Part shown: piece by piece, positions 1 to 51,912 of the stretch | How positions within the stretch are numbered: the stretch's first letter is position 1 | Layout of the letters: each line of letters begins with the position of its first letter | NCBI GenBank assembly: GCA_017979445.1 | Contig: CM030718.1 | Span: 22,253,021 to 22,317,020, forward strand | From: Akebia trifoliata | Taxonomy: Eukaryota > Streptophyta > Magnoliopsida > Ranunculales > Lardizabalaceae | Reading direction: 5' to 3' | Length of the DNA stretch: 64,000 bases | Notes under the pieces: generated by a model | Database searches by the model: none | What the model was told of the DNA's origin: nothing | What the model saw: only the letters and a program-made list of their open reading frames with translations | Position numbers and translations under genes: made by a program

Positions 1-87
1 TGTGAGATTAAATCCTGTCCGTTCGATATCGTTAGATCCAACGGATCATTTCTGTTTGCCAATCCGTTAGCCAGCGATTGCCCCCCC
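1..87. mobile_element. Right terminal fragment of a second giant palindromic element
   Basis: These bases repeat, in the same orientation, the right end of the giant inverted-repeat element at 483-6449 (compare 6363-6449). They run from TGTGAGATTAAATCC to GATTGCCCCCCC and are followed by a TA tract. They are also the inverted complement of the left end (483-580). The simplest reading is that another copy, or a solo end, lies immediately left of the window. The rest of that copy cannot be seen. Confidence 0.75.
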
Positions 88-114: not shown

Positions 115-468
115 GGATCACGTTCAATGGCAAACTTTTTGGCAAAACATTTTTCAAAACATGAGTTAGAAGTTTTGGAATGGGCTGATTTTTAGTGAGG
201 ATGATTTCTATAGTGAGGCGATCATCATCACCAAAAATCAGCCCATTCCAAAACTTCTAACCCCATCAAAAACAGTTTACAAAAAATGAACGGTCCACGA
301 TTTTCCAACTTGTAAACATGGGTTAGAAGTTTTGGAATGGGCTGATTTTTGGTGAGGATGATCTCCTCATCGTAGAGATCATCCTCACCAAATATCAGCC
401 CATTCCAAAACTTCTAACTCATGTTTTGAAAAATGTTTTGCCAAAAAGTTAGCCATTGAACGCTACCC
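115..468. mobile_element. Palindromic MITE in a (TA)n tract, family 1
   Basis: The element is flanked on both sides by TA repeats (88-114 and 469-482). Its ends are inverted: the left begins GGATCACGTTCAATGGC and the right ends GCCATTGAACGCTACCC. Each half contains its own hairpin built from GAAGTTTTGGAATGGGCTG and its complement, so one motif of about 45 bp appears four times in alternating orientation. There is no coding potential. It matches 58099-58479 and 58923-59300. It is a non-autonomous DNA element, and its superfamily is unassigned. Confidence 0.8.
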
Positions 469-639
469 ATATATATATATATGGGGGGCGATCGCTGGCT
501 AACGGATTGGCGAACGGATTGGCAAACGGAAATGATCCGTTGGATCTAACGATATCGAACGGACAGGATTTAATCTCACACGAACTGTTTAAGTTATAAA
601 GTTAAGGGTTATTTATTGCGCCATCCCTTAATTTATCGT

Positions 640-1085
640 TATTTCGTGCTTCCTCCCTCTCCTCTTTAAACTAGAGATAACAGAACAGAGAGTTCTCATT
701 CTCTTCGAAGAGAACTCTCTCTGGCTCTCTCTTCTCACTCTCTTCGAACTCGTTGCTCTCACACGATCATTCTCTCACGCTCTCTCTCACTCTCGCTACC
801 TCTCTCTCTCTCTCGCCCTATTCCTCGCTGAACCCTCGCACAAACGGCTCACTCGCTGTCTCCCTTTCTCTCTCTCTCTCTCTAACTCTCGTTGCCTCCC
901 TCTCTCACTCTCGCTGCCTCTCTCTCTCTCTCTCGCCCTATTCATCGTTGAAACCCTCGCACGAACAACTTTCGTTCTCATTCTCTCTCGCACGAACACG
1001 AACACGAACGGGACCCTATTCCTTCCTGCAACTCCATCTCACGAACATGAATGGCTGCCAATCTCTCGCCCTATTTGACAGAACT
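640..1085 (+). other. CT-rich leader and possible first exon of the captured chimera
   Basis: The CTCTCT-rich stretch contains an imperfect palindrome at 690-722 (GAGAGTTCTC...GAGAACTCTC). The last ATG (1047) gives MNGCQSLALFDRT and runs into a GTAAGT donor at 1086. This looks like a 5' leader plus first exon, from the exportin-7 locus or from a third donor. I cannot tell which. The long frames in this tract on both strands are low-complexity by-products of the CT repeat. Confidence 0.4.
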
Positions 1086-2172
1086 GTAAGTTTTTTTTTC
1101 AATTTTTTCTTTTTTGGAAATTCTCAGATATTGTATGGTATTATTCTATGAACATGACTAATTTATTCATTCATTCGTGAAGTCAAAAAAATCTGGATTT
1201 ATTGTGATTTGATTTTCGATTTTATTTATTGTGATTTTAGTTTCAGATTTTTTGTAGACAATAAATCAGGAATTATTTAGGGGTTTTTTTTTCCGATTTA
1301 ATTTTTTTTGGGTTATTTATTTTCTATCTGATCATCATGTTATGATTTTATTTGTTTAAGGGTTTTTTTTTCCGATTTTATTTATTGTGATGCATTTGTT
1401 TTAAATCTGGATACTTATTTAAAAAAATTCTGATTTTTGATTTGGGTAGCTAATCAATTATGGAAAAAGAATGCCACTTTTCTATGTACTGGATCAATTA
1501 TGGAAAAAGAATGCATACCTTTCTTATCTTGTTTTCTGTTTACCTTATTTATGGTGCATCAGGCATGAATTCTATGGCTTTTGCTCTGTGATTTAGGAAA
1601 CTATCTCAAGTTTTAATTTGTAGAAGACCTCACTCTAGTATTGGACAAGACACGATATGATTTTGTGTGTGTGTATTTCTATATGTTTTATGAGCCTATC
1701 TTCTCTTTAATGTGAAAAATATCCAACTTCTACTGTTTATATAGTTAAACAAATGACTAGTAACTAGTGTTAATGATATGTAAACGACATATTGTATGAG
1801 CCTACCTTCTCTTTATTGTGATAAATATCCAACCTCTAGTATTTATATTGTCAAAAGATTTTTCTAGTGCTTAATGATACGTAATTTTAGGTAGTTCTAT
1901 GAGTGAAAGCTTTTCTGTTGCATCCCATAGTTGTGAATTAGCCACTTAGTTCTTATTTTATCCTCCACTTGTTAGTGCACCGGTTTAATTATGGATAAAT
2001 TATTGGTCCACAGTTTTAGCTTGATCACTATATCATTGATTTTTCTGTTATTTAATTTTTTTCGTGCTGAATTTTTTCCATATGTTCTTTTGCATTGAAC
2101 TTCTGTTATTTAATTCTTTATGCTTGATTCCTTGGTGACTCGAGATATTTTGATCCTTCATGTGATGTGCAG

Positions 2173-2507
2173 TTGGCAGTAGATTGCAAGAGCTTGCACT
2201 CTCTCTTTCACTTAAGTGTTTGTGTTTCGATTTTTTGGGGACATCTTTGGATGAAAGTTCTGAAGAGTTTGGTTCTGTCCAGGTACAAATTAACAGTTAA
2301 ATGATACATTCATTTCACTTGGTCTTCTAGTTTTAAGTGTGACAAATTGAGTTGTGAAATTTTTTTCTTTATTGAACTATGAAAGCTTCAATCACTCTGG
2401 TTATCTCACAGATTCCATCTTCTTGGAGGTCAGTCCTGGAGGATCCTTCAACCCCGCAGATTTTTTTTGATTACTATGCAATCACCAAGCCCCCTCTTTC
2501 AAAGGAG
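2173..2507 (+). pseudogene. XPO7: Captured exportin-7 (RanBP16-like) gene fragment, left arm
   Basis: Two exons with GT-AG introns are seen. Exon 2173-2282 follows TGTGCAG, ends at CAG|GTAC, and reads RLQELALSLSLKCLCFDFLG then TSLDESSEEFGSVQ. Exon 2412-2507 follows CTCACAG, ends at GAG|GTTAG, and reads IPSSWRSVLEDPSTPQIFF then DYYAITKPPLSKE. The block FDF.GTS.DESSE..G.VQIP.SWRS.LEDPST.QIFFDYY is the conserved central part of exportin-7, a HEAT-repeat nuclear transport receptor that works with Ran. Only about 66 codons of a roughly 1,050-residue protein are present, so no transport function is expected. The splice sites look usable, and the frame is open through both exons and into the next captured exon. 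Confidence 0.85.
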
Positions 2508-2769
2508 GTTAGATTATAGTAGTTTTAACTCTCAGTCTGTTTTTTGTGGTTGTTCTTCTTTCAAACTTCTTTTCTCATCTATCTCAGTCTATTAAATGTC
2601 TTAACTCTCAATGTGTTTTATTTATGGTTTTGATTAGTTTTGGTACTTGCTTAGGAGCTAGTACAGTTAATTGATGCACTATTTTGTTTATATTTCTTGC
2701 TTGGTAAGTTACATGTGAATTGAATTACACATACCTTACAATAACTAAGTACTTTTTTTTTTGGTGCAG

Positions 2770-3018
2770 ATTTATGGTGGGGTGTTCGTGAACAATATTC
2801 TTGGTTTATCTATTCTTCTATCACTGATTTATGTTCAAGACTTGCAATGAGTTTTCTCAGCCGAAGTGTTGATTGTTCTTAGTATTTGTGCTATAATGGG
2901 TCTTCTTACTAGTCTCCGCTCCAGATTCCCACTTTGAACATGCTTCATAGCCTACCTTTTGTACCCATTATCTTTGGTGTTGATTTATGTTCTCAACTAT
3001 GTTTTCAACTAGTCTTAG
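2770..3018 (+). pseudogene. NCL: Captured last exon of an NCL-like Na+/Ca2+ exchanger, left arm
   Basis: After the acceptor GGTGCAG the frame reads GGVFVNNILGLSILLSLIYV, then QDLQ, then stop TGA where the right arm has TGG. It continues as FSAEVLIVLSICAIMGLL, a second TGA, TCFIAYLLYPLSLVLIYVLN and a TAG (TGG in the right arm) before the final TAG at 3016-3018. This fits the C-terminal membrane helices of plant EF-hand Na+/Ca2+ exchanger-like proteins, which end in a short ...WS tail. Three tryptophan codons have become stops, so the exon is dead as an exchanger. Its acceptor lies downstream of the exportin exons, so splicing would give a chimeric transcript ending here. Family assignment is from memory of the motif. 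Confidence 0.7.
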
Positions 3019-3157
3019 AGTTACAGAAGGTGAACATTTGATGGATGAGGCGATGGCTAAGCGATGGATAATGGGCCAGCCTTCTTTTTCTTTTTCTTTA
3101 TTTTCTTGAATATGTAAATTAAGGAGCATTCCCCTTTTGCATTTGTATTTTTATTTT

Positions 3158-3714
3158 GATTCTCATTTTGATAGAATGTTTCAGTCGAGAGAAAAATTAA
3201 GTTGGTCTCAACCAAAACGATCCAAACATTTCAAAACAGTGCAAAACATTCAATACTTCGAGGTCAGTAGTGTTTTGTGGCAATGTTAGCCAAAGTATAA
3301 AAAAAATTCAAATCTCTTAGAATTGTGCAGAGCTTGTGAAATTATTAGCCACTGACTTTTAGGCTCGTTTTAGTACACATGAGAGAATTTTTTTTTAGAG
3401 TCTTGATAATATGACTCGTCAGGTCGCATACTTAATTGACTCACTGATATGACAAGTTAGAGAATCGTAAATCTGTATGCCTCGGGATTTTTATTATAGT
3501 GGATGGTAATGCTATTCCTCAAGAGCTTGCGAAAATAATCTCCGATTATGTAATCTGTAACTATACTCGTGTAGTTCTTACTGAGTAAAACCAGCCTACC
3601 AAAAAATAAATAAACAAAACTGAATTGGCATGTGCTGAAGATTATTTTGTTTGGGAGATTTTCCAAAAGCTCATGACATTTAGTCTATAAATTGATTTGC
3701 CTTGACATTGTATT
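3158..3714. other. Spacer (loop) of the giant inverted repeat
   Basis: About 557 bp of AT-rich, non-palindromic sequence separates the two arms. It would form the loop if the arms paired in RNA. I see no recognisable gene. A 69-codon minus-strand frame at 3457-3666 shows no motif and is probably chance. Confidence 0.6.
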
Positions 3715-3853
3715 AAATAAAAATACAAATGCAAAAGGGGAATGCTCCTTAATTTACATATTCAAGAAAAAAACGAAAAAGAAAAAGAAGGCTGGTCCAT
3801 TATCCATCGCTTAGCCATTGCCTCCTCCATCAAATGTTCACCTTCTATAACTC

Positions 3854-4102
3854 CTAAGACCAGTTGAAAACATAGTTGAGAACATAAATCAACACCAAAG
3901 ATAATGGGTACAAAAGGTAGGCTATGAAGCATGTTCAAAGTGGGAATCTGGAACTGAGGCTAGTAAGAAGACCCATTATAGCACAAATACTAAGAACAAT
4001 CAACACTTCGGCTGAGAAATCCCATTGCAAGTCTTGAACATAAATCAGTGATAGAAGAATAGATAAACCAAGAATATTGTTCACGAACACCCCACCATAA
4101 AT
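3854..4102 (-). pseudogene. NCL: Captured last exon of an NCL-like Na+/Ca2+ exchanger, right arm
   Basis: This is the inverted copy of 2770-3018 with the same 249-bp length. On the minus strand it keeps the W codons at QDLQWDFSAEVL and at VFNWS, followed by the native-looking stop (complement of 3854-3856). It shares with the left arm the TGA after the RFPL codons (probably an old TGG). It is therefore the better record of the captured exon. It spans two or three predicted membrane helices. Confidence 0.7.
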
Positions 4103-4363
4103 CTGCACAAAAAAAAAAGTACTTAGTTATTGTAAAGTATGTGTAGTTCAATTCACATATAACTTACCAAGCAAGAAATATAAACAAAATAGTGCATCAA
4201 TTAACTGTACTAGCTCCTAAGCAAGTACCAAAACTAATCAAAACCATAAATAAAACACATTGAGAGTTAAGACATTTAATAGACTGAGATAGATGAGAAA
4301 AGAAGTTTGAAAGAAGAACAACCACAAAAAACAGACTGAGAGTTAAAACTACTATAATCTAAC

Positions 4364-4698
4364 CTCCTTTGAAAGAGGGGGCTTGGTGATTGCATAGTAA
4401 TCAAAAAAAATCTGCGGGGTTGAAGGATCCTCCAGGACTGACCTCCAAGAAGACGGAATCTGTGAGATAACCAGAGTGATTGAAGCTTTCATAGTTCAAT
4501 AAAGAAAAAAATTTCACGACTCAATTTGTCACACTTAAAACCAGAAGATCAAGTGAAATGAATGTATCATTTAACTGTTAATTTGTACCTGGACAGAACC
4601 AAACTCTTCAGAACTTTCATCCAAAGATGTCCCCAAAAAATCGAAATACAAACACTTAAGTGAAAGAGAGAGCACAAACTCTTGCAATCTGCTGCCAA
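4364..4698 (-). pseudogene. XPO7: Captured exportin-7-like gene fragment, right arm
   Basis: This is the inverted copy of the left-arm fragment. Exons lie at 4589-4698 and 4364-4459 (110 and 96 bp, the same lengths as in the left arm), with complementary AG/GT borders conserved. Amino-acid differences from the left arm include RLQEF and KCLYF. Because it is antisense to the left copy in genomic terms, read-through of the whole element would give a transcript whose two exportin fragments are complementary. Confidence 0.82.
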
Positions 4699-5935
4699 CT
4701 GCACATCACATGAAGGATCAAAATATCTCAAGTCACCAAGGAATCAAGCATAAAGAATTAAATAACAGAAGTTCAATGCAAAAGAACATATGAAAAAAAT
4801 TCAGCACGGAAAAAATTAAATAACAGAAAAATCAATGATATAGTGATCAAGCTAAAACTGTGGACCAATAATTTATCCATAATTAAACCGGTGCACTAAC
4901 AAGTGGAGGATAAAATAAGAACTAAGTGGCTAATTCACAACTATGAGATGCAACAGAAAAGCTTTCACTCATAGAACTACCTAAAATTACGTATCATTAA
5001 GCACTAGAAAAATCTTTTGACAATATAAATACTAGAGGTTGGATATTTATCACAATAAAGAGAAGGTAGGCTTATACAATATGTCGTTTACATATCATTA
5101 ACACTAGTTACTAGTCATTTGTTTAACTATATAAACAGTAGAAGTTGGATATTTTTCACATTAAAGAGAAGATAGGCTCATAAAACATATAGAAATACAC
5201 ACACACAAAATCATATCGTGTCTTGTCCAATACTAGAGTGAGGTCTTCTACAAATTAAAACTTGAGATAGTTTCCTAAATCACAGAGCAAAAGCCATAGA
5301 ATTCATGCCTGATGCACCATAAATAAGGTAAACAGAAAACAAGCTATGAAAGGTATGCATTCTTTTTCCATAATTGATCCAGTACATAGAAAAGTGGCAT
5401 TCTTTTTCCATAATTGATTAGCTACCCAAATCAAAAATCAGAATTTTTTTAAATAAGTATCCAGATTTAAAACAAATGCATCACAATAAATAAAATCGGA
5501 AAAAAAAAACCCTTAAACAAATAAAATCACAACATGATGATCAGATAGAAAATAAATAACCCAAAAAAAAATTAAATCGAAAAAAAAACCCCCAAATAAT
5601 TCCTGATTTATTGTCTTCAAAAAATCTGAAACTAAAATCACAATAAATAAAATCGAAAATCAAATCACAATAAATCCGGATTTTTTTGACTTCACGAATG
5701 AATGAATAAATTAGTCATGTTCATAGAATAATACCATACAATGTCTGAGAAATTTCCAAAAAAGAAAAAATTGAAAAAAAACTTACAATTCTATCAAATA
5801 GGGCAAGAGATTGGCAGCCATTCATGTTCGTGAGATGGAGTTGCAGGAAGGAATAGGGTCCCGTTCGTGTTCTTGTTCGTGCGAGAGAGAATGAGAACGA
5901 AAGTCGTTCGTGCGAGGGTTTCAACGATGAATAGG

Positions 5936-5981
<46 letters not shown>

Positions 5982-6037
5982 CAGCGAGAGTGAAAGAGAG
6001 AGTGAGAGAGGGAGGCAACGAGAGTTAGAGAGAGAGC

Positions 6038-6069
<32 letters not shown>

Positions 6070-6075
6070 GAGCGA
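5936..6075. repeat. (GA)n microsatellite tract in the right arm
   Basis: Long GAGAGA runs with a few interruptions lie here, equivalent to the shorter CT tract at about 860-945 in the left arm. Expansion here accounts for most of the length difference between the arms. Arginine/glutamate-rich or leucine/serine-rich frames across it are spurious. Confidence 0.9.
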
Positions 6076-6454
6076 GAGAGGGAGGCAGCGAGTGAGCCGT
6101 TCGTGCGAGGGTTTCAGCAAGGAATAGGGCGAGAGAGAGAGAGGTAGCGAGAGTGAAAGAGAGCGTGAGAGAATGATCGTGTGAGAGCAACGAGTTCGAA
6201 GAGAGTGAGAAGAGAGAGCCAGAGAGAGTTCTCTTCGAAGAGAATGAGAACTCTCTGTTCTGTTATCTCTAGTTTAAAGAGGAGAGGGAGGAAGCACGAA
6301 ATAACGATAAATTAAGGGATGGCGCAATAAATAACCCTTAACTTTATAACTTAAACAGTTCGTGTGAGATTAAATCCTGTCCGTTCGATATCGTTAGATC
6401 CAACGGATCATTTCTGTTTGCCAATCCGTTAGCCAGCGATTGCCCCCCCTATAT

Positions 6455-6486
<32 letters not shown>

Positions 6487-6899
6487 GGGTCAGGTTCAAG
6501 GGCCATATGAGAAAACATATGTAAAAACTTTCGTTTTGAATAAAATTTTAAAATATGGGTTAGAAATTTTGGATTTAGCTGATTTTTGGTGAGGATGATC
6601 TCTATGATGGGAAGATCATCAAAAAAAAAAAAAAAATCAGTTCAATCTGAAACTTCTAACCCCATTAAAAGTGATTTAGAATGTGGACCGTCGATATTTT
6701 ACCCATTTTTATCACTAATTTGTAAATCACTTTTGATGGATTTAGAAGTTTCTGATTGAGCTGATTTTTTGTGAGGATGATCTTTTCATCATAGTGACCA
6801 TCTTTGCAAAAAATCAGCTCAATCCAAAACCTCTAACTCTTATTTTGAAAAACGAAAGTTTTTTCATATGTTTTCTCATATGGCCCTTGAACCGCCCCC
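6487..6899. mobile_element. Palindromic MITE in a (TA)n tract, family 2
   Basis: The ends are GGGTCAGGTTCAAGGGCCAT and the inverted GGCCCTTGAACCGCCCCC. TA tracts flank it (6450-6486 and 6900-6916). The inside has two sub-hairpins around TTGGATTTAGCTGATTTTTG-type motifs, and a centre containing GTGGACCGTCGA. It is the same family as the three copies at 59315-60567. No coding capacity. Confidence 0.8.
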
Positions 6900-6916
6900 A
6901 TGTATATATATATATA

Positions 6917-7304
6917 GGGAGCAGTTCGGCAGCCCTAAAGTTTGCCAAGTTTGGTGCCAAACATTTTGTGTAAATCACTTTTGATGGGGTTAGAAGTTTT
7001 AGAATATGCTGATTTTTTGTGAGGATGATCTCTACGATGAAGAGATCATCCTCACAAAAAATCAGCTCATTTTGAAACTTCTAACCTTAATTTACAAGTT
7101 GAAGAATCGTGGACTGTCCAATTTTTGTAAATCACTTTTGATGGGGTTAGAAGTTTTGGAATAGGCTGATTTTTAGTGAGGATGATCTCCTCATCATAGA
7201 GATCATCCTCACAAAATATCAGCTCATTCCAAAGCTTCTAACCCATATTTTGAAAAATGTTTGGCACCAAACTTGGCAAACTTTAGGGCTGCTGAACCGT
7301 CCCC
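6917..7304. mobile_element. Palindromic MITE in a (TA)n tract, family 3
   Basis: It begins GGGAGCAGTTCGGCAGCCCT and ends with the inverted AGGGCTGCTGAACCGTCCCC, between TA tracts (6900-6916 and 7305-7318). The architecture is the same as the other families: outer inverted ends, two internal hairpins and a central GGACTGTCC-like core. The terminal sequence differs enough to call it a separate subfamily. Confidence 0.8.
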
Positions 7305-7318
7305 ATATATATATATAT

Positions 7319-9478
7319 AATTTGATGAATTACTTAAAAGCAATTGAATGATGGATTTCAATACTTATATAATATAAGTATATAAAGAAAATATCTCCAT
7401 GATTTCTAAAATTGTCAAAATGATATATGCCTAAATATAAGGATAAACATAGTATACAAACACATTGGTAAAGTAAAAAAAAATTGAACAAAATAAGATA
7501 CAAACAAAATCTTTATTTTTATAAAATATTAATGTGATTATGAAAAAAAGAAGTATTGATGATATTCTAAGTCAATAATAATATTTTTTATAAATTATTT
7601 TTATTTGTGTATCGTTCCTTGAATATAACATAGGGTCATCCAACAAATGAACTATCGGTCATTGGCATATTTGATAAATAAAATGAATCAAGTACCTTCA
7701 ATTATAATCATTGACATTTTTGATAAATAGTGCAAATGAAAACAAGAGAGTTTAGAGATATGAGCTTCAAAAGAACTTTTCATTATTACCCTTCGCTCAA
7801 TGATTTTTCCCTTAGTGCACATTATTTTTTTAGATTCCTTGGCTCAATTGTGTCATGTGTGACCGACTTTTTTTTTACATGTTTAAAGACTGATGAAAAA
7901 TTTTCATTGACTCATACAATCTGTAAAAAAAATTCTTTTATATATTATCATATCTATAAATTGATGATATATGATATTTTTGTGATAAGTTTTAATTTTA
8001 TCTCAAGTAGTTTAATGAGATCATTAATTATTATTTTTTTCTTTTACTTCTTTTGTATAGTAGGATTTCTTTTTTTATTTATTTATTATTTTCATCAATA
8101 ATTACCTACCAAAAAGAAGGAATAGGAGTTATATGTTCAGTTATAATTGTGTAATGCTTAGATTTGCAATTCAATACTGGGATATATAATTTTAATATAA
8201 TCTTGTTTTTTATTTATTTTATCATAAGAATTTATTATAGTGAAATTATAAGAATAACTTAAATACAATGCGTAGGTATTTGCAAAATACATTATATGTA
8301 CTCCATAGACAAATTTGTTATTTTTCTTGTATTATTTGTTTTCAATTTAAAGCATTAATTTATATCGAATATATTTATATCATTATGTTATTAATATAAT
8401 AGATCTTATTTTAAATACATATACTTATATATATAAATCCAAATATTTTAGGATATATGATTCGCAAGGAGGTTTTGTTTTGTAAGGGGACAATTATCTT
8501 GTAAGTTATGGTATAGTACCCCCAATATTAATTGTAATACAAATGAATAAGACCTATATCATTATACACACTATTTAATTTCTAATAATATATTTATAGA
8601 AATATTTGAGATTATTATAGGAATTAAGTGTTGTTAACTTGTTTTGCATTGATAGATTTCTATATTTAGAAATTAAAAAATCTTTTAAAAATATTGAAAG
8701 GTTGATTTAATCTTTTTTTTATAAATAGGATTATTTAGATTGTTTTCTTTCAATTTCACATTTAAGCATAAGTAGATATAGATTAAGATATTCTAAACTA
8801 ATGAAATTATTTATTTATTATACATAATTACTTATTAATTTTGTTTTGATTGTAGTTTCAAAAGAACAATCAATTAAATCAACTATGAAAATAATTTTTT
8901 TTAAAGCAAGTATATCGACCTGACGTATCGTATTTTCTTACTGTTGAAGTAGAAGATAATGATTATGGGTTGATGCAAAGTAGCTCAAAGAGAAGTTACT
9001 TAGATGTTAACTTGGTAGATCTCACAGTAAATCTGAAAAGTCTTGTAAAAATTAACCACACAAATCTTTTAACAAATTTGATAAATCATGTAAGAGTCAA
9101 CTTGACAGATCCTAGGTTATGTATTTGAATTTCAAACTTTCAACCTAATGATCAAGACATGGTTTAATGATCATATCTGTAAAGGGTCATTGTTAGGTCT
9201 ATCAACATAAATCCCCCTAAAATAATTTGAAAAATAAAAACATCAGTTTAATCATATTTGATTTAAAGAGTATGATAGTTGTTTAGAGTATAACATAATA
9301 AAAAATGCTATTTTTGGTTTATATTGTTATATTTTTTAAATAGATAATAGAGAGCATGAGTGATAATTCTTTTATTACTAAAAGATTTACAAATTGAAAA
9401 AACAAAGAACGATTGTGAAGCCATGTTAAAGTAGTGATAGTGCTTATAATTAAGCATATAAGAGGAATCAAATTTTAT
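7319..9478. other. AT-rich intergenic stretch without recognised genes
   Basis: About 2.2 kb of very AT-rich DNA. A 123-codon frame at 7730-8101 is rich in F, Y and I and has no motif. I take it as chance. The right part may hold the lost N-terminal half of the hAT gene that follows, but I cannot recognise it. Confidence 0.5.
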
Positions 9479-11371: not shown

Positions 11372-13109
11372 TGAAAGCGCCCTCAATCCGCGGGGTGCGC
11401 GGATCCGCTTTTGACGCTTGAGGTTTGGGAGTCGCCACCTAGTTGTTATGGTCTAGGAACCAAACTGACTCTAACATGGATAAAAAGAACTAATCTACAA
11501 TAAAAAATCTGAATTCGGGGATCAAGTTACGGGGTTGGAAGGTGTTAGGCACCAACCCAGCCCGGTCAAAGCCGGTCTCTACTAACTTCCCAAGTAAATT
11601 ACATTGCTAAAACCTAGATAAAAATAAATAAAAATAAAAATTTACCTTTCCAATAGCAAGGACTTTGATCCCTCAGATCTGACAAAAATAGCTCCTTGTA
11701 CCGTGCTCCCTTGCTTCGTTCTGTCTCCGGATTTGACTTCGGATCTCCTAGATCAAGGTATCTCCTTGTTTCTGAATCTGAACTCTTCAAGTTTGTTGCG
11801 GATTTGGGGGTGTTTTTGGAGGGCTTTTAGGTGTTTTCTAGACTAAAATTGAAGGGGGGATGTTAGGTAAGGAGTTGGGACTCCAAAACTAGGGTTTATG
11901 GGGGGCTATGGGAGCTTCTAGACCTACTTTTCTTAGGGTTTATAATTTGATACGAAAATAGGGTGTGAACACCTCTATTTATAGATGTTTTTAGGGGTGG
12001 ATTTGGATAGAGTTAGTGTTTAATTAGAGATCTTTTAATTAGAGTTGTGTTTTAGTTTGACTTGTTTTAGGTAGAATTGTGTTTTAATTAGAATTGTTTT
12101 AGGTAGAATTGTTTTTAAGTTAGAACTCTATTAGATAGAGTTATTAATCAATTATAATTCTATTATGACTTTTGGTCTTATTTGATTGACTTTTAATGTT
12201 TTGACTTTAGTCTTAATTGATTGACTTTTAATATCTTGACTTTAGTCTTGCTTAATTGACTTTAATTTTGACTTCAGTCTCACTTGATTGACTTTAATAC
12301 CTTGACTTCAGTCTTGCTTGATTTACTTTTAATTTTTGGAGAACCCTCCTCTAAAATATCTTTAATTCTTTGGACCCCCAAATGGAGGGGTCCTTAAAGA
12401 AATATCCCACGAACCCTCAACAATTTTACCTGAGAGCCCGATTGATCGATTTTTTAGGTTCAAAATTTTAAATTAATTTCATTAATGTTTTAATTTAATT
12501 ATTTAATATTTTATTTATTAATTTCGAATTTTTAATTATGAAAATTGTGAAATTACCGTTTTGCCCCCGGAGAGGACTTTTCACGTTTTAAGTCGGTTTT
12601 TTTTGTTCTAGGATGTTTTAGAATCGATTTTTCGTAAGGAATTCAATGGAAATGTTAGTTTGTGTCATTTATGAAAATTTTATGTGAAATGATTGTGAAC
12701 TTTATGAGGGGCATTTTCGTAATTTTGTCGAAATTCTGGAAAATTGGTGAAATGATTTATTTGGTTCCGATTTGTTATTTTATGTGTTCGAGAGAGTTTT
12801 CCTAAGCGTAACGTAGGCTCTAGGTTGTTTTGAGGTTAGGGATATTTTGGTAATTTGGTAATTTTTAGTGATTTTTATCGTGAAGTTTCTTTCTGGTCTG
12901 CAAGATGATGATTTCTATGTTTCTGGGGTCGTATTTTCCTAGCGTAGCGTAGTTTTCTAAGGTTTTGTCAGTTCGAGATACCTCATCCGGATTTCTGAAA
13001 CATATCTGGTAACAAAATAAAGCATTGGAATACACATCCATCATTGGGAATCATTGCATCGGGTTGACGAGTTGATTAATCAGGCGGATGCGAAAATGGG
13101 GTGTCTACA
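11372..13109 (-). repeat. 3' LTR of the Tat/Ogre element
   Basis: It runs (minus strand) from TGTAGACACCCCATTTTCGC to GGGCGCTTTCA. It contains a TATA-like CTATAAATAGAGGTG (complement of about 11971-11985) and blocks of TTGACTTTAGTCTTG-like short repeats (12160-12330). It is very similar to 28504-30242, differing by scattered substitutions and small indels. Confidence 0.93.
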
Positions 13110-23680: not shown

Positions 23681-24134
23681 AAGGGTATTTTAGTACTCTT
23701 CCAATGGTCCATGTAAAAGATCAATTTATTTTCTTTTGGAAAATCTTATACTTATGGAAAATATTTTCTGGAAAATATATTTTCTGAAAAATGTTTCTTC
23801 TAAAGAACACTTCTTTTGGAAAATTATTTTTTGAAAAATTTTTTTTTTTTCTTCTTTGAAAATTCGATTTCCATTTTGATTTAATTGGTCCGGTCCATCA
23901 TGATTGTTGGATCGGGATGGACTGGGTCATTATTGTAAAAGAATGGATTCTTTACTGGGTCGGTGCACCCATTTTAATTTTCAAAAATAAAATTTCTTTG
24001 ATCCTTGAGGACAATCATGCACTTTGATCTCATCATTCACATCACTCACATACATTCATCCAACAACATGCATTCATTCAATAAACAACCCGGGAACACC
24101 CACGATAAGTTCGAGTCGTGACCTACTGGGAAGG

Positions 24135-25881
24135 TGTAGACACCCCATTTTTGCACTCGCCTGATTAATCAACTCGTCAACCCGATCGCAAGGATTCCCA
24201 ATGATGGATGTGTATTCCATTGCTTTACTTTGTTACCAGATTTGTTTCAGAAATCCAGATGAGGTATCTCGAATTGACAAAACCTTATAAACCACGCTAC
24301 GCTAGGAAAATACGACCCCAGAAATCTAGAAATCATCATCTTGCAGACCAAAAAGAAGCTTCACGATAAAAATCACTAAAAATTGACCAAATTACCAAAA
24401 TACCCCTAACCTCAAAATAACCCTAGAGCCTACGTTACGGTTAGGAAAACTCTCTCGAACACATAAAATAACAAATCGGAACCAAATAAATCATTTCACC
24501 AATTTTAACAGAATTTGACAAAATTACGAAAATGCCCCTCATAAAGTTCACAATCATTTCACACAAAAAATTTCATAAATAACACAAAATAATATTTCCA
24601 TTGAATTCCTTACGAAAAATCGATTCTAAAACATCCTAGAACATTAAAAACCGACTTAAAACGTGAAAAGTCCTCTCTGGGGGCAAAACGGTAATTTCAC
24701 AATTTTCATAATTAAAAAATTCGAAATTAATAAATAAAACATTAAATAATTAAAGTGAAACATTAATGAAATTAATTTAAAATTTTGAACCTAAAAAATC
24801 GATTAATCGGACTCTCAGGCAAAATTGTTGAGGGTTCGTGAGATATTTCTTTAAGGACCCCTCCATTTGGGGGTCCAAAGAATTAAAGAAATAATGGAAG
24901 GGGGTTCTCCAAAAATTAAAAGTAAATCAAGCAAGACTGAAGTCAAGGTATTAAGTCAATCAAGTAAGACTAAAGTCAAAATTAAAGTCAATTAAGCAAG
25001 ACTAAAGTCAAGATATTAAAAGTCAATCAATTAAGACTAAAGTCAAAACATTAAAAGTCAATCAAATAAGACCAAAAGTCATAATAGAGTTCTAATTAAA
25101 TAATAACTCTATCTAATAGAGTTCTAACTTAAAAACAATTCTACCTAAAACAATTCTAATTAAAACACAATTCTACCTAAAACAATTTTAACTAAAACAC
25201 AACTCTAATTGAATACTAATTCTATCCAAATCAACCCTAAAAAAAAATCTATAAATAGAGGTGCTCACACCCTATTTTCGTATCAACTCATAAACCCTAA
25301 GAGAAGTAGGTCTAGAAGCTCCCCTAGCCCCCCATAAACCCTAGTTTTGGAGCCCCAACTCCTTAGCTAACATCCCTCCTTCAATTTTAGTCTAGAAAAC
25401 ACCCAAAAGCCTTCTAAAAACACTCCCAAATCCTCAACGAACTTGAAGAGTTTAGATTCAAAAACAAGGAGATACCTTGCCTCGGTTCAAAAACAAGGAG
25501 ATACCTTGCCTCGGAGATCCGAAGTCAAATCCGGAAACAGAACGAAGCAAGGGAGCACGGTACAAGGAGCTTTTTTTGTCAGATCTGAGGGAATAAAGTC
25601 TTTGCATCGGAAAGGTATTTTTTTATTTATTTTTATCTAGGTTTTAGCAATGTAATTTACTTGGGAATTTAGTAGAGACCGGCTTTGGCCGGGCGGGATT
25701 GGTGCCTAACACCTTCCAATTCCGTAACATGATCCCCGAATTCAGTTTTCTTGGTTTTAGATTAGTTTTTATCCGTTTAGAGTCATTGATCGGTTCCTAG
25801 ACCGTAATAACTAGGTGGCGACTCCCAAACCACAATGGTCAAAAGCGGATCCGCGCACCCCGCGGATTGAGGGCGCTTTCA
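24135..25881 (+). mobile_element. Solo LTR of the same Tat/Ogre family, opposite orientation
   Basis: It runs TGTAGACACCCC...GGGCGCTTTCA on the plus strand, about 1,747 bp, with a perfect target duplication GAAGG (24130-24134 and 25882-25886). It matches the LTRs at 11372 and 28504 in inverted orientation. It lies in the leader of the full element, so it inserted later and then lost its interior by LTR-LTR recombination. A TATA-like TATAAATA is at 25250. A short direct duplication (TTCAAAAACAAGGAGATACC) occurs at about 25456-25505. Confidence 0.95.
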
Positions 25882-28503: not shown

Positions 28504-30242
28504 TGAAAGCGCCCTCGATCCGCGGGGTGCGCGGATCCGCTTTTGACCCTTGAGGTTTGGGAGTCGCCACCTAGTTGTTATGGTCTAGGAACCAAACTGA
28601 CTCTAACATGGATAAAAAGAACTAATCTACCATAAAAAATCTGAATTCGGGGATCAAGTTACGGGGTTGGAAGGTGTTAGGCACCAACCCCGCCCGGCCA
28701 AAGCCGGTCTCTACTAACTTCCCAAGTAAATTACATTGCTAAAACCTAGATAAAAATAAATAAAAATAAAAATTTACCTTTCCGATAGCAAGGACTTTGT
28801 TCCCTCAGATCTGACAAAAATAGCTCCTTGTACCGTGCTCCCTTGCTTCGTTCTGTCTCCGGATTTGACTTCGGATCTCCTAGATCAAGGTATCTCCTTG
28901 TTTCTGAATCTGAACTCTTCAAGTTTGTTGCGGATTTGGAGGTGTTTTTGGAGGGCTTTTAGGTGTTTTCTAGACTAAAATTGAAGGGGGGATGTTAGGT
29001 AAGGAGTTGGGACTCCAAAACTAAGGTTTATGGGGGGCTATGGGGGCTTCTAGACCTACTTATCTTAGGGTTTATGATTTGATACGAAAATAGGGTGTGA
29101 GCACCTCTATTTATAGATGTTTTTAGGGGTTGATTTGGATAGAGTTAGTGTTTAATTAGAGATCTTTTAATTAGAGTTGTGTTTTAGTTAGACTATTTTA
29201 AGTAGAATTGTGTTTTAATTAGAATTGTTTTAGGTAAAATTGTTTTTAAGTTAGAACTCTATTAGATAGAGTTATTAATCAATTATAATTCTATTATGAC
29301 TTTTGGTCTTATTTGATTGACTTTTAATGTTTTGACTTTAGTCTTAATTGATTGACTTTTAATATCTTGACTTTAGTTTTCCTTAATTGACTTTAATTTT
29401 GACTTCAGTCTCACTTGATTGACTTTAATACCTTGACTTCAGTCTTGCTTGATTTACTTTTAATTTTTGGAGAACCCCCCTCTAAAATATCTTTAATTCT
29501 TTGGACCCCAAATGGAGGGGTCCTTAAAGAAATATCCCACGAACCCTCAACAATTTTACCCGAAAGTCTGATTGATCGATTTTTTAGGTTTAAAATTTTA
29601 AATTAATTTCATTAATATTTTAATTTAATTATTTAATGTTTTATTTATTAATTTCGAATTTTTTAATTATGAAAATTGTGAAATTACCGTTTTGCCCCCG
29701 GAGAGGACTTTTCACGTTTTAAGTCGGTTTTTGGCGTTCTAGGATGTTTTAGAATCGATTTTTCGTAAGGAATTCAATGAGAATGTTAGTTTGTGTCATT
29801 TATGAAAATTTTTATGTGAAATGATTGTGAACTTTATGAGGGGCATTTTCGTAATTTTGTCGAATTTTGTGAAAATTGGTGAAATGATTTATTTGGTTCC
29901 GATTTGTTATTTTATGTGTTCGAGAGAGTTTTCCTAAGTGTAACGTAGGCTCTGGGGTTGTTTGGAGGTTAGGGATATTTTGGTAATTTGGTAATTTTTA
30001 GTGATTTTTATCGTGAAGTTTCTTTCTGGTCTGCAAGATGATGATTTCTATGTTTCTGGGATCGTATTTTCCTAGCGTAGCGTAGTTTCTAAGGTTTTGT
30101 CAGTTCGAGATACCTCATCCGGATTTCTGAAACATATCTGGTAACAAAATAAAGCATTGGAATACACATCCATCATTGGGAATCATTGCAATCGGGTTGA
30201 CGAGTTGATCAATCAGGCGGATGCGAAAATGGGGTGTCTACA
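28504..30242 (-). repeat. 5' LTR of the Tat/Ogre element
   Basis: A 1,739-bp LTR, very similar to 11372-13109. It would drive element transcription leftwards. A TATA-like CTATAAATAGAGGTG (complement of about 29102-29116) lies mid-LTR, as in the other copies. Confidence 0.93.
29106..29117 (-). promoter_or_regulatory. TATA box of the 5' LTR promoter
   Basis: The minus strand reads CTATAAATAGAGG, conserved in all three LTR copies of the family here. That supports a functional core promoter position in the family. Confidence 0.6.
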
Positions 30243-30415
30243 CCATCGTTGAAAATGTTTTTTCTATTATGCATACCATAAAAATCGACTACGTAGTTAA
30301 ATGGATGAATGATAATTTGATCACATACATTGAGAAATATAATTTTGCTATTATCAACAATGAGACAATCACACATTGTTTTTAAAATATGAAAACTCGT
30401 CGAGAACAATTGTAA
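30243..30415 (+). pseudogene. hAT transposase pseudogene, 3' part (dimerisation domain)
   Basis: The sequence continues the gene cut at 11371. With one copy of CCATC removed, the frame reads TIVENVFSIMHTIK across the junction, then WMNDNLITYIEKYNFA and MKTRREQL with a stop at 30413-30415. This is the C-terminal hAT dimerisation (hATC) motif, where families usually read VERAFSAM. One in-frame TAA replaces a glutamine codon before NMKTRR. It proves that the gypsy element inserted into the hAT gene. Confidence 0.85.
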
Positions 30416-49046: not shown

Positions 49047-49277
49047 TGTTAAATTGAACACAGAGAACACTAACAGGAGCTAACAGTTCTGGGAATGGCT
49101 TATCATTTATTGAAACTTCAACAGGCTTTTATAAAGTCTTACAGATAATAACATAAGCAGAACAAACCACGTTTACAGCCTAGAGACGTGGTAACAATTA
49201 AGACCTGCTCAAACGCAACAACTACCCGAACTACCCTGAAGAATTGGGCTACAGAATAACAAAGTCTGATCTCTTCA
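49047..49277 (-). repeat. 3' LTR of the scrambled copia element
   Basis: Reads (minus) TGAAGAGATCAGACTTTG...GTTCAATTTAACA. The same 231-bp length as 54167-54397. Confidence 0.92.
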
Positions 49278-49663
49278 TTCCCTCCCTTAAACTAGACTGT
49301 CTAAACAACTAGTTTATCATAGATGCATCACAAACTCCAAGCTGCTCTCTCATTCTTTGAAAAGACTCCAATTTCAGTGGCTTGGTGAATACATCAGCCA
49401 CTTGATCATGTGTACCACAGTGTTTTAAATGCACAATTCTATCATTTGCAAGGTTACGAAGGAAATGAAATCACACCTGAATATGTTTGCTTCTACCATG
49501 TAAGACAGGATTCTTGGCTAGCTTAATGGTTGAGCTATTGTCACAAAAGTGACAGTGCTCTCATTTCCTTCATACCCCAACTTCTCCAGCACCCTTTTCA
49601 TCCATACTGCTTGAGTTGAACATGTAGCAGCAGCCACGTATTCTGCTTCGGTTGTGCTTAAGG
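49278..49663 (-). pseudogene. Sense-oriented RNase H 3' end of the scrambled copia element
   Basis: This is the inverted copy of about 50880-51261. It holds the PPT (TTTAAGGGAGGGAA on the minus strand), the DQVADVFTKPLK tail and the AEYVAAA, QAVWMKRVL region, with a few substitutions and stops. The match to the plus-strand copy ends abruptly at 49663/49664, where RT starts in the opposite orientation. Confidence 0.88.
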
Positions 49664-51197
49664 AGGCTAACTGGGCACTTCTTACCAATACCGATCCAAT
49701 GAGTTATGAGGAAGCAACAGTTGATGCAAGATGGAGAGAGGCTATGGATTCGGAGATAAACGCCATTAAGAAAAATAATACATGGCACTTGACGTAGCTG
49801 CCAGCAGGTGCTAAAAGGATTGGGGTTAAATGGGTTTACAAGACGAAGGTAAATGAGCACGGTGAGGTAGAAAGATACAAAGCCCGCTTGGTTGCTAAGG
49901 GGTACACACAGAAATACGGCATTGACTGTGAAGAAGTGTATACACTTGTGTCACATATGGATACTGTTCGAATGTTTCTTGCTTTAGCTGCACAAAGAGG
50001 TTGGTATGTTTATCAACTCGATGTTAAATCAGTTTTTCTTCATGGAAACTTGACAGAAGATGTTTATGTCGATCAACCAAGAGGCTATGAGGTGAAAACT
50101 GCAATGCACAAAGTCTATAAGCTCAATAAAGCATTGTATGGGCTCAAGCAGGCGCCGAGGGCGTGGTTTAGCCGCATTGAAGCTTATTTTTTGAAGGAAG
50201 GGTTTGAGAAGTGTGAAAGTGAACAAATACTCTTCACCAAGGTCAACAAACAAGGTAAACTCTTGGTTATTAGCCTTTATGTTGATGACTTGATGCTAGA
50301 GATGATGAGAATATGGTCGTTGAATTTAAGAGATTAATGATGAATGAATTTGACATGTCGGACCTTGGTAAAATGAGGTTCTTTCTTGGGATAGAAGTTT
50401 TGCAGCTTAGTGAAGGAATTTTTATTCATCAGAAGAAGTATGTGTTGGAAGTTCTAAAGAAATTTGGAATGGAAAAATGCAACTCTGTTCAAAATCCAAT
50501 TTGCCCAGGTTCCAAGATTTTTCGAGATGATAATGGAGTGGAGGTAGATGGTTCTTATTACAGACAATTGGTAGGTAGCATGATGTATATGATAGCCACG
50601 AGACCGGATATTATGTATGCAGTCAGTTTGATCAGTAGATACATGTCGAAACCAACGGAGCTTCATCTTTTGGCTGCCAAACGAATTCTACGTTATCTAC
50701 AAGGAACTTCTGGCTTTGGACTGTTGTATAAGAAGGATGGGAATAAGAAGCTGATTGGATTCACTGATAGTGATTATGCTGGTGATGTGGAAGATAGGAA
50801 AAGCACCTCAGGCTATGCCTTTGTCTTAAGCTCAGCTGCAATAGCTTGGTCCTCACGCAAGCAGCCGATCGTTGCCTTAAGCACAACCAAAGCAGAGTAC
50901 GTGGCTGCTGCTGCATGTTCAACTCAAGCAGTATGGATGAAGAGGGTGCTGGAGAAGTTGGGGTATGAAGGAAATGAGAGCATTGCCATTTTTTGTGACA
51001 ATAGCTCAACCATTAAGCTAGCCAAGAATCCTATCTTACATGGTAGAAGCAAACATATTCAGGTGCGATTTCATTTCCTTCGTAACCTTGCAAATGATGG
51101 AATTGTGCATTTGAAACACTGTGGGGCACATGATCAAGTGGCTGATGTATTCACCAAGCCACTGAAATTAGAGTTTTTTCAAAGAATGAGAGAGTAG
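49664..51197 (+). pseudogene. RT and RNase H of the scrambled copia element (inverted block)
   Basis: It reads TNTDPMSYEEATVDARWREA, IGVKWVYKTKVNEHGEVERY, KARLVAKGYTQKYGIDCEEV, the QLDVKSVFLHG motif, GLKQAPRAW and the catalytic box SLYVDDLM. After a one-base frame change near 50320 it continues with FFLGIEV, LVGSMMYMIATRPDIMYAVS, then RNase H (GFTDSDYAGDVEDRKSTSGY, TKAEYVAAAACSTQAVWMK) and VADVFTKPLKLEFF. It is well preserved apart from one stop near 49797 and the frameshift. Its strand is opposite to gag and integrase of the same element. Confidence 0.92.
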
Positions 51198-51261
51198 CTT
51201 GGAGTTTGTGATGCATCTGTGATAAACTAGTTGTTTAGACAGTCTAGTTTAGGAGAGGGAA

Positions 51262-51485
51262 TGAAGAGGTCAGACTTTGTTATTCTGTAGCCCGATTCTT
51301 CAGGGTAGTTCGGGTAGTTGTTGCGTTTGAGCAGGTCTTAGTTGTTACCACATCTCTAGGCTGTAAACGTAGTTTGTTTTGTTTATGTTATTATCTGTAA
51401 GGCTTTATAAAAGCCTATTGAAGTTTCAATAAATGATAAGCCATTCCCAGAACTGTTGGCTCCTGTTAGTGTTCTCTGTGTTCAA
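51262..51485 (+). repeat. Internal third LTR of the scrambled copia element
   Basis: Starts TGAAGAGGTCAGACTTTG after the PPT-like AGGAGAGGGA and matches the outer LTRs inverted. It stops at GTTCAATTTAA, lacking the terminal CA, and passes straight into antisense linker sequence. TATA-like TTTATAAAAGCC is at 51404. Confidence 0.9.
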
Positions 51486-51912
51486 TTTAAAGAAGAGATT
51501 GCTCTTGATTTGGAATGGGGTGATGATGAGGAGTTGAATATTTCAAATGAGTCAGAAGACGAGAATGCAGGAAGCAATGAAGATGAAGAAGTTGCATCAA
51601 ACCTTGTGAATCCAGAAACTCTTGGACCTTAGAGTGTGAGATCGAGCTCAAGGGTCATAAGAACCCCTGTGTGGATGGGAGAATATGTCTCAGGGGAAGA
51701 GCTTTCTAATGAGACATATTCTCCCATCCACACAGGGGTTCTTATAATCCTTGAGCTCGATCTCACACTCGAAGGTCCAAGAGTTTCTAGGTTCACAAGG
51801 TTTGGTGCAACTTTTTCATCTTCATTGCTTCCTGCATTCTCTTCTTCTGACTCATTCGAAATATTCAGCTCCTCATCATCACCCCACTCCAAATCAAGAG
51901 CAATCTCCTCTT
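51486..51912. repeat. Snap-back hairpin in the scrambled copia element
   Basis: Arms of about 205 bp (51486-51693 and 51712-51912) are inverted copies of the integrase-RT linker region. They meet at GGGAGAATATGTCTC and GAGACATATTCTCCC with a loop of about 18 bp. The arms encode the same acidic linker (DDEELNISNESE, VIRTPVWMGEYVS) in opposite directions, with several differences between them. Frames crossing the hairpin on either strand are artefacts of it. Confidence 0.92.

Follow-up and report, generated by a model that had tools for sequence, protein, structure and literature searches.

A 5,967-bp palindrome at positions 483-6449 of the Akebia trifoliata DNA analysed here (the window, a stretch of 64,000 nucleotides at C15:22253021-22317020 in a plant genome of 652.5 Mb and 878 contigs) is a non-autonomous Mutator-like element (MULE) of the (TA)n-targeting kind, and both of its arms contain pieces of two host genes, exportin-7 (XPO7) and an NCL-type exchanger. 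We consider it probable that the palindrome arose by repair, when both broken ends copied the same half of an element inward, and that it later moved in trans while its arms exchanged sequence. A sequence-only reading of this DNA had described one mobile unit akin to Pack-MULEs, with captured gene fragments inside inverted arms, and our comparisons with the rest of the genome support that description.

Architecture of the palindrome

The left arm (483-3157) and right arm (3715-6449) are inverted copies of about 2.7 kb separated by a 557-bp loop (3158-3714; Table 1). The resemblance of the arms, noticed in the sequence-only reading, is borne out by a single gapped local alignment over element bases 26-2674 (95.2% identity), and identity between the window's left and right arms is 96.5-99.1% when calculated per region with gap columns excluded. 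From end to centre, each arm consists of a 971-bp terminal module, an XPO7 piece with its introns, and the last exon of an NCL-type exchanger. The sequence-only reading was correct in placing exportin-7 exons ahead of an exchanger exon within the arms, but the outer ~971 bp of the arm is a shared transposon terminal repeat and not captured gene. Its exon lengths of 110, 96 and 249 bp fit the sequence, with AG/GT borders and introns retained in the element (exon coordinates were counted by hand). The loop, it emerged, is partly captured too: 3154-3619 continues the NCL donor, 3616-3716 is shared with sister elements, and these two parts meet at a short A-run. No open reading frame (ORF) of 180 aa or more was present in 483-6449.

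Captured genes and their donors

The donor locus of the XPO7 piece is C14:34931523-34933013 (97% and 91% identity). A search with the donor-exon region returned 376 proteins at E<=1e-3 from 503 candidates (best E, 1.1e-23), and exportin-7 was named for several among the 120 proteins listed. This agrees with the exportin-7-like exons proposed earlier, and the identification rests on the donor locus because neither Pfam nor PDB returned a match to the 68 aa of the joined exons by themselves. The C14 locus extends into a further open segment that is absent from the element and that we take to be XPO7. At C11:47926782-47928044 lies the counterpart of the NCL piece and of most of the loop (94-98% identity). 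Evidence for the proposed NCL-like exchanger comes from the whole of this donor locus: its last exon alone gives a weak PF01699 match (E=6.7e-4, below the Pfam cut-off), and other frames clearly contain PF01699 (Na_Ca_ex; E=1.5e-9) plus EF-hands. Both donors are still present in the genome, XPO7 on C14 and NCL on C11.

Relative to the donor sequence, three in-frame stops precede the normal stop in the left NCL exon, the last of them just two codons ahead of it; the right NCL exon has one, which is also present in the left. These premature stops make a working protein from the element unlikely, and we rejected a coding chimera on this ground. A structured RNA of a known family was also rejected, since an Rfam scan of the window gave no match at the gathering threshold.

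Membership of a MULE family

The sequence-only reading found no named family to which the element could be assigned, a view that our data do not support. We place the element among MULEs because its terminal inverted repeats (TIRs) are shared with elements encoding a MULE transposase domain, its termini are GGG, its relatives have 9-bp target-site duplications (TSDs), and (TA)n is targeted; a palindromic class outside known superfamilies was rejected on the same features. The TA tracts described as bounding the element are present as (TA)n flanks. The terminal module is widespread in the genome, with at least 41 matches (40 scored of 130 candidates), and the genome search for TIRs gave at least 60 (40 scored of 437 candidates); match counts for the element, the terminal module and MULE domains are lower bounds. 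Family ends are paired ~5-8 kb apart and the cargo between them differs by copy: L014 contains a tetraspanin-like piece (PF00335, E=1.5e-5, below the Pfam cut-off), and sister element L016 holds, outside the stretch that it shares with the loop, an RNase H1 N-terminal fragment (PF01693).

Among 18 non-transposase copies that we fetched, both ends were read in 13 (L016, L017, L021, L024 and L026 excluded). TA tracts, some imperfect, host 11 of these 13, the window copy included, and both transposase-coding elements (on C14 and C4) are inserted in TA tracts as well. Exact 9-bp TSDs (GTTAAGTAT and TTAGTTATT) flank both copies outside TA tracts (L014 and L025). Three paralogous places in the genome correspond to the L014 flanks once these are joined. 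Two of the three are uninterrupted and have a single copy of the target with one base different (GTTAAATAT); at the third, a small deletion covers the target site.

The genome contains at least 150 MULE transposase domains (150 scored of 587 candidates). Four of the 150 scored lie 7.6-9 kb inward of TIR matches and share one relative orientation, though at one of these loci (C13) only the inner part of the module was matched. Transposase-coding elements with the same ends are 10-11 kb long, and their terminal repeat pairs of ~570 bp are 92% (C14) and 98% (C4) identical. The MULE transposase domain PF10551 was found on both (E=3.1e-33 on C14, 1.5e-33 on C4), a scan for the FAR1 domain found it on the C14 element, and the best relatives of the C14 transposase protein are mostly plant FAR1-RELATED SEQUENCE 5-like proteins (among the 120 listed of 927). 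The C14 and C4 elements were read in part, and the other two of the four loci were recognised by position only. In both C14 and C4 elements, the terminal module aligns over 1-971 with the transposase-distal end and over just 1-640 with the other end, and for this reason we assign both arms of the window element to the same end type.

Joints, sister lineages and arm evolution

The left half of the element follows the NCL donor as far as L023 base 4044, and the right half exits NCL at 3475-3505 and enters L016-like DNA, which it follows to base 4098. The loop joint sets L023 base 4044 against L016 base 4098 across a few shared A residues. We read the halves as two copies of one half, stopped at different points in captured DNA. 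The alignments behind these joints exclude short or weak BLAST rows. In four copies (window, upstream on C15, C13 and C200) the alignment is unbroken from the left end through this joint, which argues that the palindrome moved as a unit, to at least three contigs. The continuity of left half and loop upholds the earlier interpretation of a single unit as opposed to two independent insertions, as do the paralogous empty sites with one target copy at the sister palindrome L014; signs of independent insertion were not seen, though no empty-site search was aimed at the window copy, which TA tracts and small MITEs flank. When the genome was searched with the left flank of the C200 copy, no second near-identical locus appeared.

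A relative on C1 (L021) is one-sided, reading TIR-XPO7-NCL-L016 DNA, and holds an XPO7/NCL junction that is missing from the palindromes, which we read as a deletion in the latter. In the C5 copy (L019) the same 221 bp are deleted as in C1, and the palindrome joint, from NCL base 2642 to XPO7 base 3081, is peculiar to it. This C5 palindrome also contains an extra ~2.0 and ~1.3 kb (L019 ~3651-5680 and 6403-7700) with short border overlaps, perhaps nested transposons.

Arms of further lineages include other DNA. A 711-bp block beyond the TIR module is found in both arms of L014 and L015 and at one end of L025 and L026, and a 135-bp part of it also lies inside L025/L026. Three L020-type copies (C3, C14 and C128) have a non-TIR block repeated in both arms; similar DNA occurs at C5:28.43-28.53 Mb (88-94% identity), which may be its source, and elsewhere, for example at C3:11132083 (98%). 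In the C9 copy, 1,421 bp of C14:689853-691266 (94%) separate a complete arm from a partial one; the complete arm is placed among the other palindromes in a tree, and we did not count this copy as a separate palindrome origin. The central ~1.4 kb of the C9 copy (L013 2230-3650; L033, C14:689853-691266) had no other match in the genome. We read the family-wide pattern as one that repeated inverted copying, templated by one end, would produce.

Within copies, the two arms resemble each other most closely. Informative sites pair the arms of the same copy in 69 of 78 cases (other groupings, 9 of 78), and none of the 78 separates left arms from right arms; this count excludes the upstream C15 copy (the same as the window copy) and the C9 copy (one arm partial) and skips gap columns. 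The tree agrees, with support of 100/99 for C13, 100/98 for C15 and 99/96 for C200. The simplest cause would be conversion between the arms or a further round of repair templated by the opposite arm.

Origin of the palindrome

Excision-linked gap repair is a source of internally changed cut-and-paste elements. On the account that we favour, a non-autonomous (TA)n-targeting MULE would have captured pieces of XPO7 and NCL, adjoining interior DNA of a sister element, and the repair of one copy, following an excision or break, would have gone wrong. The first end would have copied terminal repeat, XPO7 and NCL inward, and the opposite end, which has the same inverted terminal repeat, would have invaded and templated on the same half, copying terminal repeat, XPO7, NCL and sister DNA. 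Joining of the strands at the few matching bases of the A-run would give a palindrome whose loop is asymmetric. A FAR1/MULE transposase, plausibly that of the same-end elements, would have moved this palindrome in trans to at least three contigs, a local duplication would have placed the second copy beside the first on C15, and the arms would later have exchanged sequence through gene conversion or renewed repair.

Several points weigh against this account. The repair event is not itself observed, and the TSD of the window copy is unreadable, its flanks being TA tracts, as is also the case for the other ten TA-tract copies. The C14 and C4 elements have frame breaks in the stretches read, and we therefore call them transposase-coding, not proven active. 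The 8 kb read of the C1 relative contained no recognised right end, and the direction from L025/L026 to L014/L015 is a deduction of ours. The C9 copy might descend from the common palindrome by damage, having acquired a new locus in the course of repair. Separate palindrome formation could likewise account for the similarity of arms within copies, although the shared joint speaks against this.

A similar first palindrome could, moreover, be produced by tail-to-tail insertion of two linear copies and a fusing deletion. Here two linear Pack-MULEs would have inserted adjacently in opposed orientation, a deletion would have removed the inner ends, and the composite would move by its outer ends. 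Family members and miniature inverted-repeat transposable elements (MITEs) do lie side by side in TA tracts, L027 has opposed family ends (103-603 and 647 onward) just 44 bp apart across a TA tract, as adjacent insertions would leave them, and the different stopping points of the halves fit this route too. However, inner termini or inner target duplications were not recognised in the loop, arms have grown into non-TIR DNA in separate lineages, and the transposase-distal end type is frequent at both ends (4 of 10 loci tested, besides L015 and the window group). We regard adjacent insertion as distinctly unlikely.

A replication accident, in which fork stalling and template switching between the inverted terminal repeats (FoSTeS/FoSTeST) take the place of excision, would fit the few matching bases at the loop joint and the unrelated-locus filler in C9 as well as gap repair does, and FoSTeST has been proposed for the multicopy Pack-TIRs of animals (PMC8277862). 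The product predicted is the same, so that sequence alone cannot separate the two, but excision-linked gap repair is mentioned in excerpts of PMC4168063 as a source of internally changed cut-and-paste elements. We give the replication route a rather low probability and retain end-templated gap repair as the preferred explanation.

Possible hairpin effects

The motif AACTGTAAGTTTT is kept in most TIR ends displayed and looks like an inward 5' splice site. Exceptions include the window right arm (AATTGTAAG), one L015 end and both L019 ends, and L027 and L028 gave no match to it. Across the TIR ends of the fetched loci, the ATG upstream of the candidate splice donor is not kept. Conservation of the donor while the ATG is lost suggests that the TIR holds a non-coding leader exon. 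Read-through RNA would fold into a long hairpin, and we hypothesise that the element could silence its XPO7 and NCL donors.

The palindrome might even be a hairpin locus under selection, maintained for small RNAs against XPO7 and NCL, a possibility compatible with any of the origins above. Distinct 21-mers of the left arm recur in the right arm in 1,787 of 2,649 cases, arm 21-mers are identical to the donor loci (636 for XPO7, 271 for NCL), and the TIRs contain the candidate inward 5' splice site. Yet the dispersed copies with their degrading exons look like an ordinary mobile element, and selection of this kind seems improbable to us. A broader speculation, to which we lend little credence, is that end-templated inverted repair could be the family's standing engine of gene capture, arm growth and hairpin upkeep, making the elements self-made silencing cassettes. 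If this were true, each failed repair could lengthen the arms, draw in a new locus (as in C9) and make a captured gene a hairpin locus, arm-to-arm exchange would keep the hairpin matched, and the donor genes would be silencing targets.

Relation to known systems

The comparisons below draw on excerpts of the papers cited. In behaviour the element appears close to MuTAnT of Medicago truncatula, to which we liken it by description rather than sequence alignment: MuTAnTs have G-rich ends and a foldback structure, insert in TA microsatellites and show 9-nt TSDs in those few copies not sited in perfect TA repeats, and an autonomous relative, AutoMuTAnT, encodes a Jittery-like transposase (PMC4486113). 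They are mostly 200-300 bp, and gene capture is not reported for them in those excerpts, whereas the elements described here are 5-8 kb long, with host DNA in arms of up to 2.7 kb; AutoMuTAnT is 4.9 kb, compared with 10-11 kb for the transposase-coding relatives here (PMC4486113).

Like Pack-MULEs (PMC3310237), the element is a non-autonomous MULE carrying host gene fragments, and their donors are identifiable. In the usual, though not obligatory, Pack-MULE layout captured DNA lies between the TIRs, whereas here it is in both arms. MULE TIRs that are additional or extended, with acquired sequence inside the extended TIRs, have been described (PMC3310237); our element differs in that nearly the whole cargo is inside the arms, and in that a single genome offers the donors, a one-sided relative and several joints for comparison. 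A parallel is found in Galileo of Drosophila, in which TIR-adjacent DNA has been copied to the other end (TIR1-F1-F1-TIR2) and TIR growth is explained by conversion between TIRs (PMC3573991, PMC4168063). Galileo, however, belongs to the P superfamily and has an animal host, and its extensions comprise element-internal DNA, tandem repeats, inserted elements and other non-TIR sequence, with no captured host gene named in the excerpts (PMC3573991, PMC4168063). The microsatellite-targeted SaTar arrays of guayule and rice, in which non-autonomous MULEs are stacked, resemble the surroundings of the window element, but gSaTars are ~400-1700 bp and captured genes in their arms are not described in the portions cited (PMC5907723).

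Gene acquisition by MULEs has been called not understood or perplexing (PMC3310237, PMC8277862), and gap filling with template switching has been argued as a capture route in animals (PMC8277862). Among the papers surveyed by title and opening lines of the abstract, we found no description of a MULE with captured host genes in both arms, but the principle is stated in PMC3310237 and we make no claim of priority. While (TA)n-targeting MULEs, extended TIRs and gap-repair capture are each known, their combination in one traceable family is apparently new, at least to us. A single genome here holds the donors, a one-sided relative, varied joints, a filler copy and same-end transposase-coding elements, which allows the order of capture and arm-extension events to be worked out and the end-templated repair model to be put to a direct test. 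Hairpins of this length, built from pieces of captured genes, would also offer a natural route to small RNAs against host genes.

Tandem neighbour and surrounding repeats

A second copy of the element and its MITE lies directly upstream (C15:22247190-22253502; L009). The regions compared contain no substitution between upstream and window copies, which differ by indels (5,917 and 5,967 bp, respectively) and share 384 identical bases of left flank. We read the C15 pair as a tandem duplication of recent origin (period, 6,313 bp) or, alternatively, as an assembly duplicate. An assembly artefact, in the form of a false palindrome or a false tandem copy, would explain the lack of substitutions, though indels occur; yet sequence differences separate the left arm from the right, and the C13 and C200 copies are more divergent still and have other flanks. 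We judge such an artefact very improbable.

Table 1 Features of the palindromic element and its left border (window positions).
Feature	Position	Strand	Remarks
Right end of upstream tandem copy	1..87	-	C15:22247190 to ~22253107
Small palindromic MITE between TA tracts	115..468	.	end resembles element TIR; within ~6.3-kb upstream-repeated unit
Palindromic non-autonomous MULE (Pack-MULE)	483..6449	.	5,967 bp; termini GGGGGG...CCCCCCC in (TA)n
Left TIR module, 971 bp	483..1453	+	full-length homology to transposase-distal end of two transposase-coding elements
Candidate inward 5' splice site of leader exon, GACAGAACTGTAAGT	1077..1091	+	right arm: GATAGAATTGTAAGT
XPO7-derived segment, left arm	1472..2709	+	donor C14:34931523-34933013
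XPO7 exon, 110 bp, left arm	2173..2282	+	
XPO7 exon, 96 bp, left arm	2412..2507	+	
NCL-derived segment, left arm	2707..3157	+	donor C11:47926782-47927494
Last NCL exon, 249 bp, left arm	2770..3018	+	premature stops
Loop part 1, unpaired	3154..3619	+	NCL donor continued (C11:47927576-47928044)
Loop part 2, 101 bp	3616..3716	-	common to interior of sister elements L016/L017; oriented like right half
NCL-derived segment, right arm	3715..4164	-	
Last NCL exon, 249 bp, right arm	3854..4102	-	
XPO7-derived segment, right arm	4162..5399	-	exons ~4364-4459 and ~4589-4698
Right TIR module	5418..6449	-	same end type as left

Small palindromic MITEs are stacked in TA tracts beside the element (window 115-468, 6487-6899 and 6917-7304). 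The end of the first resembles the element's TIR, so the MITEs may be short members of the same MULE family; DNA related to them recurs at ~58.1-60.6 kb of the window. Other large inverted repeats are also present. One has arms of ~1.6 kb (24130-25752 and 28634-30247, also 11502-12831) and possibly consists of long terminal repeats of nested retrotransposons; ORFs in its vicinity (15.8-21.4 kb) were judged Ty3-like by eye. A Copia-like ORF fragment, likewise recognised by eye, has its end inside a 500-bp inverted repeat of 96% identity (49049-49548, 50313-51197 and 50991-51490).

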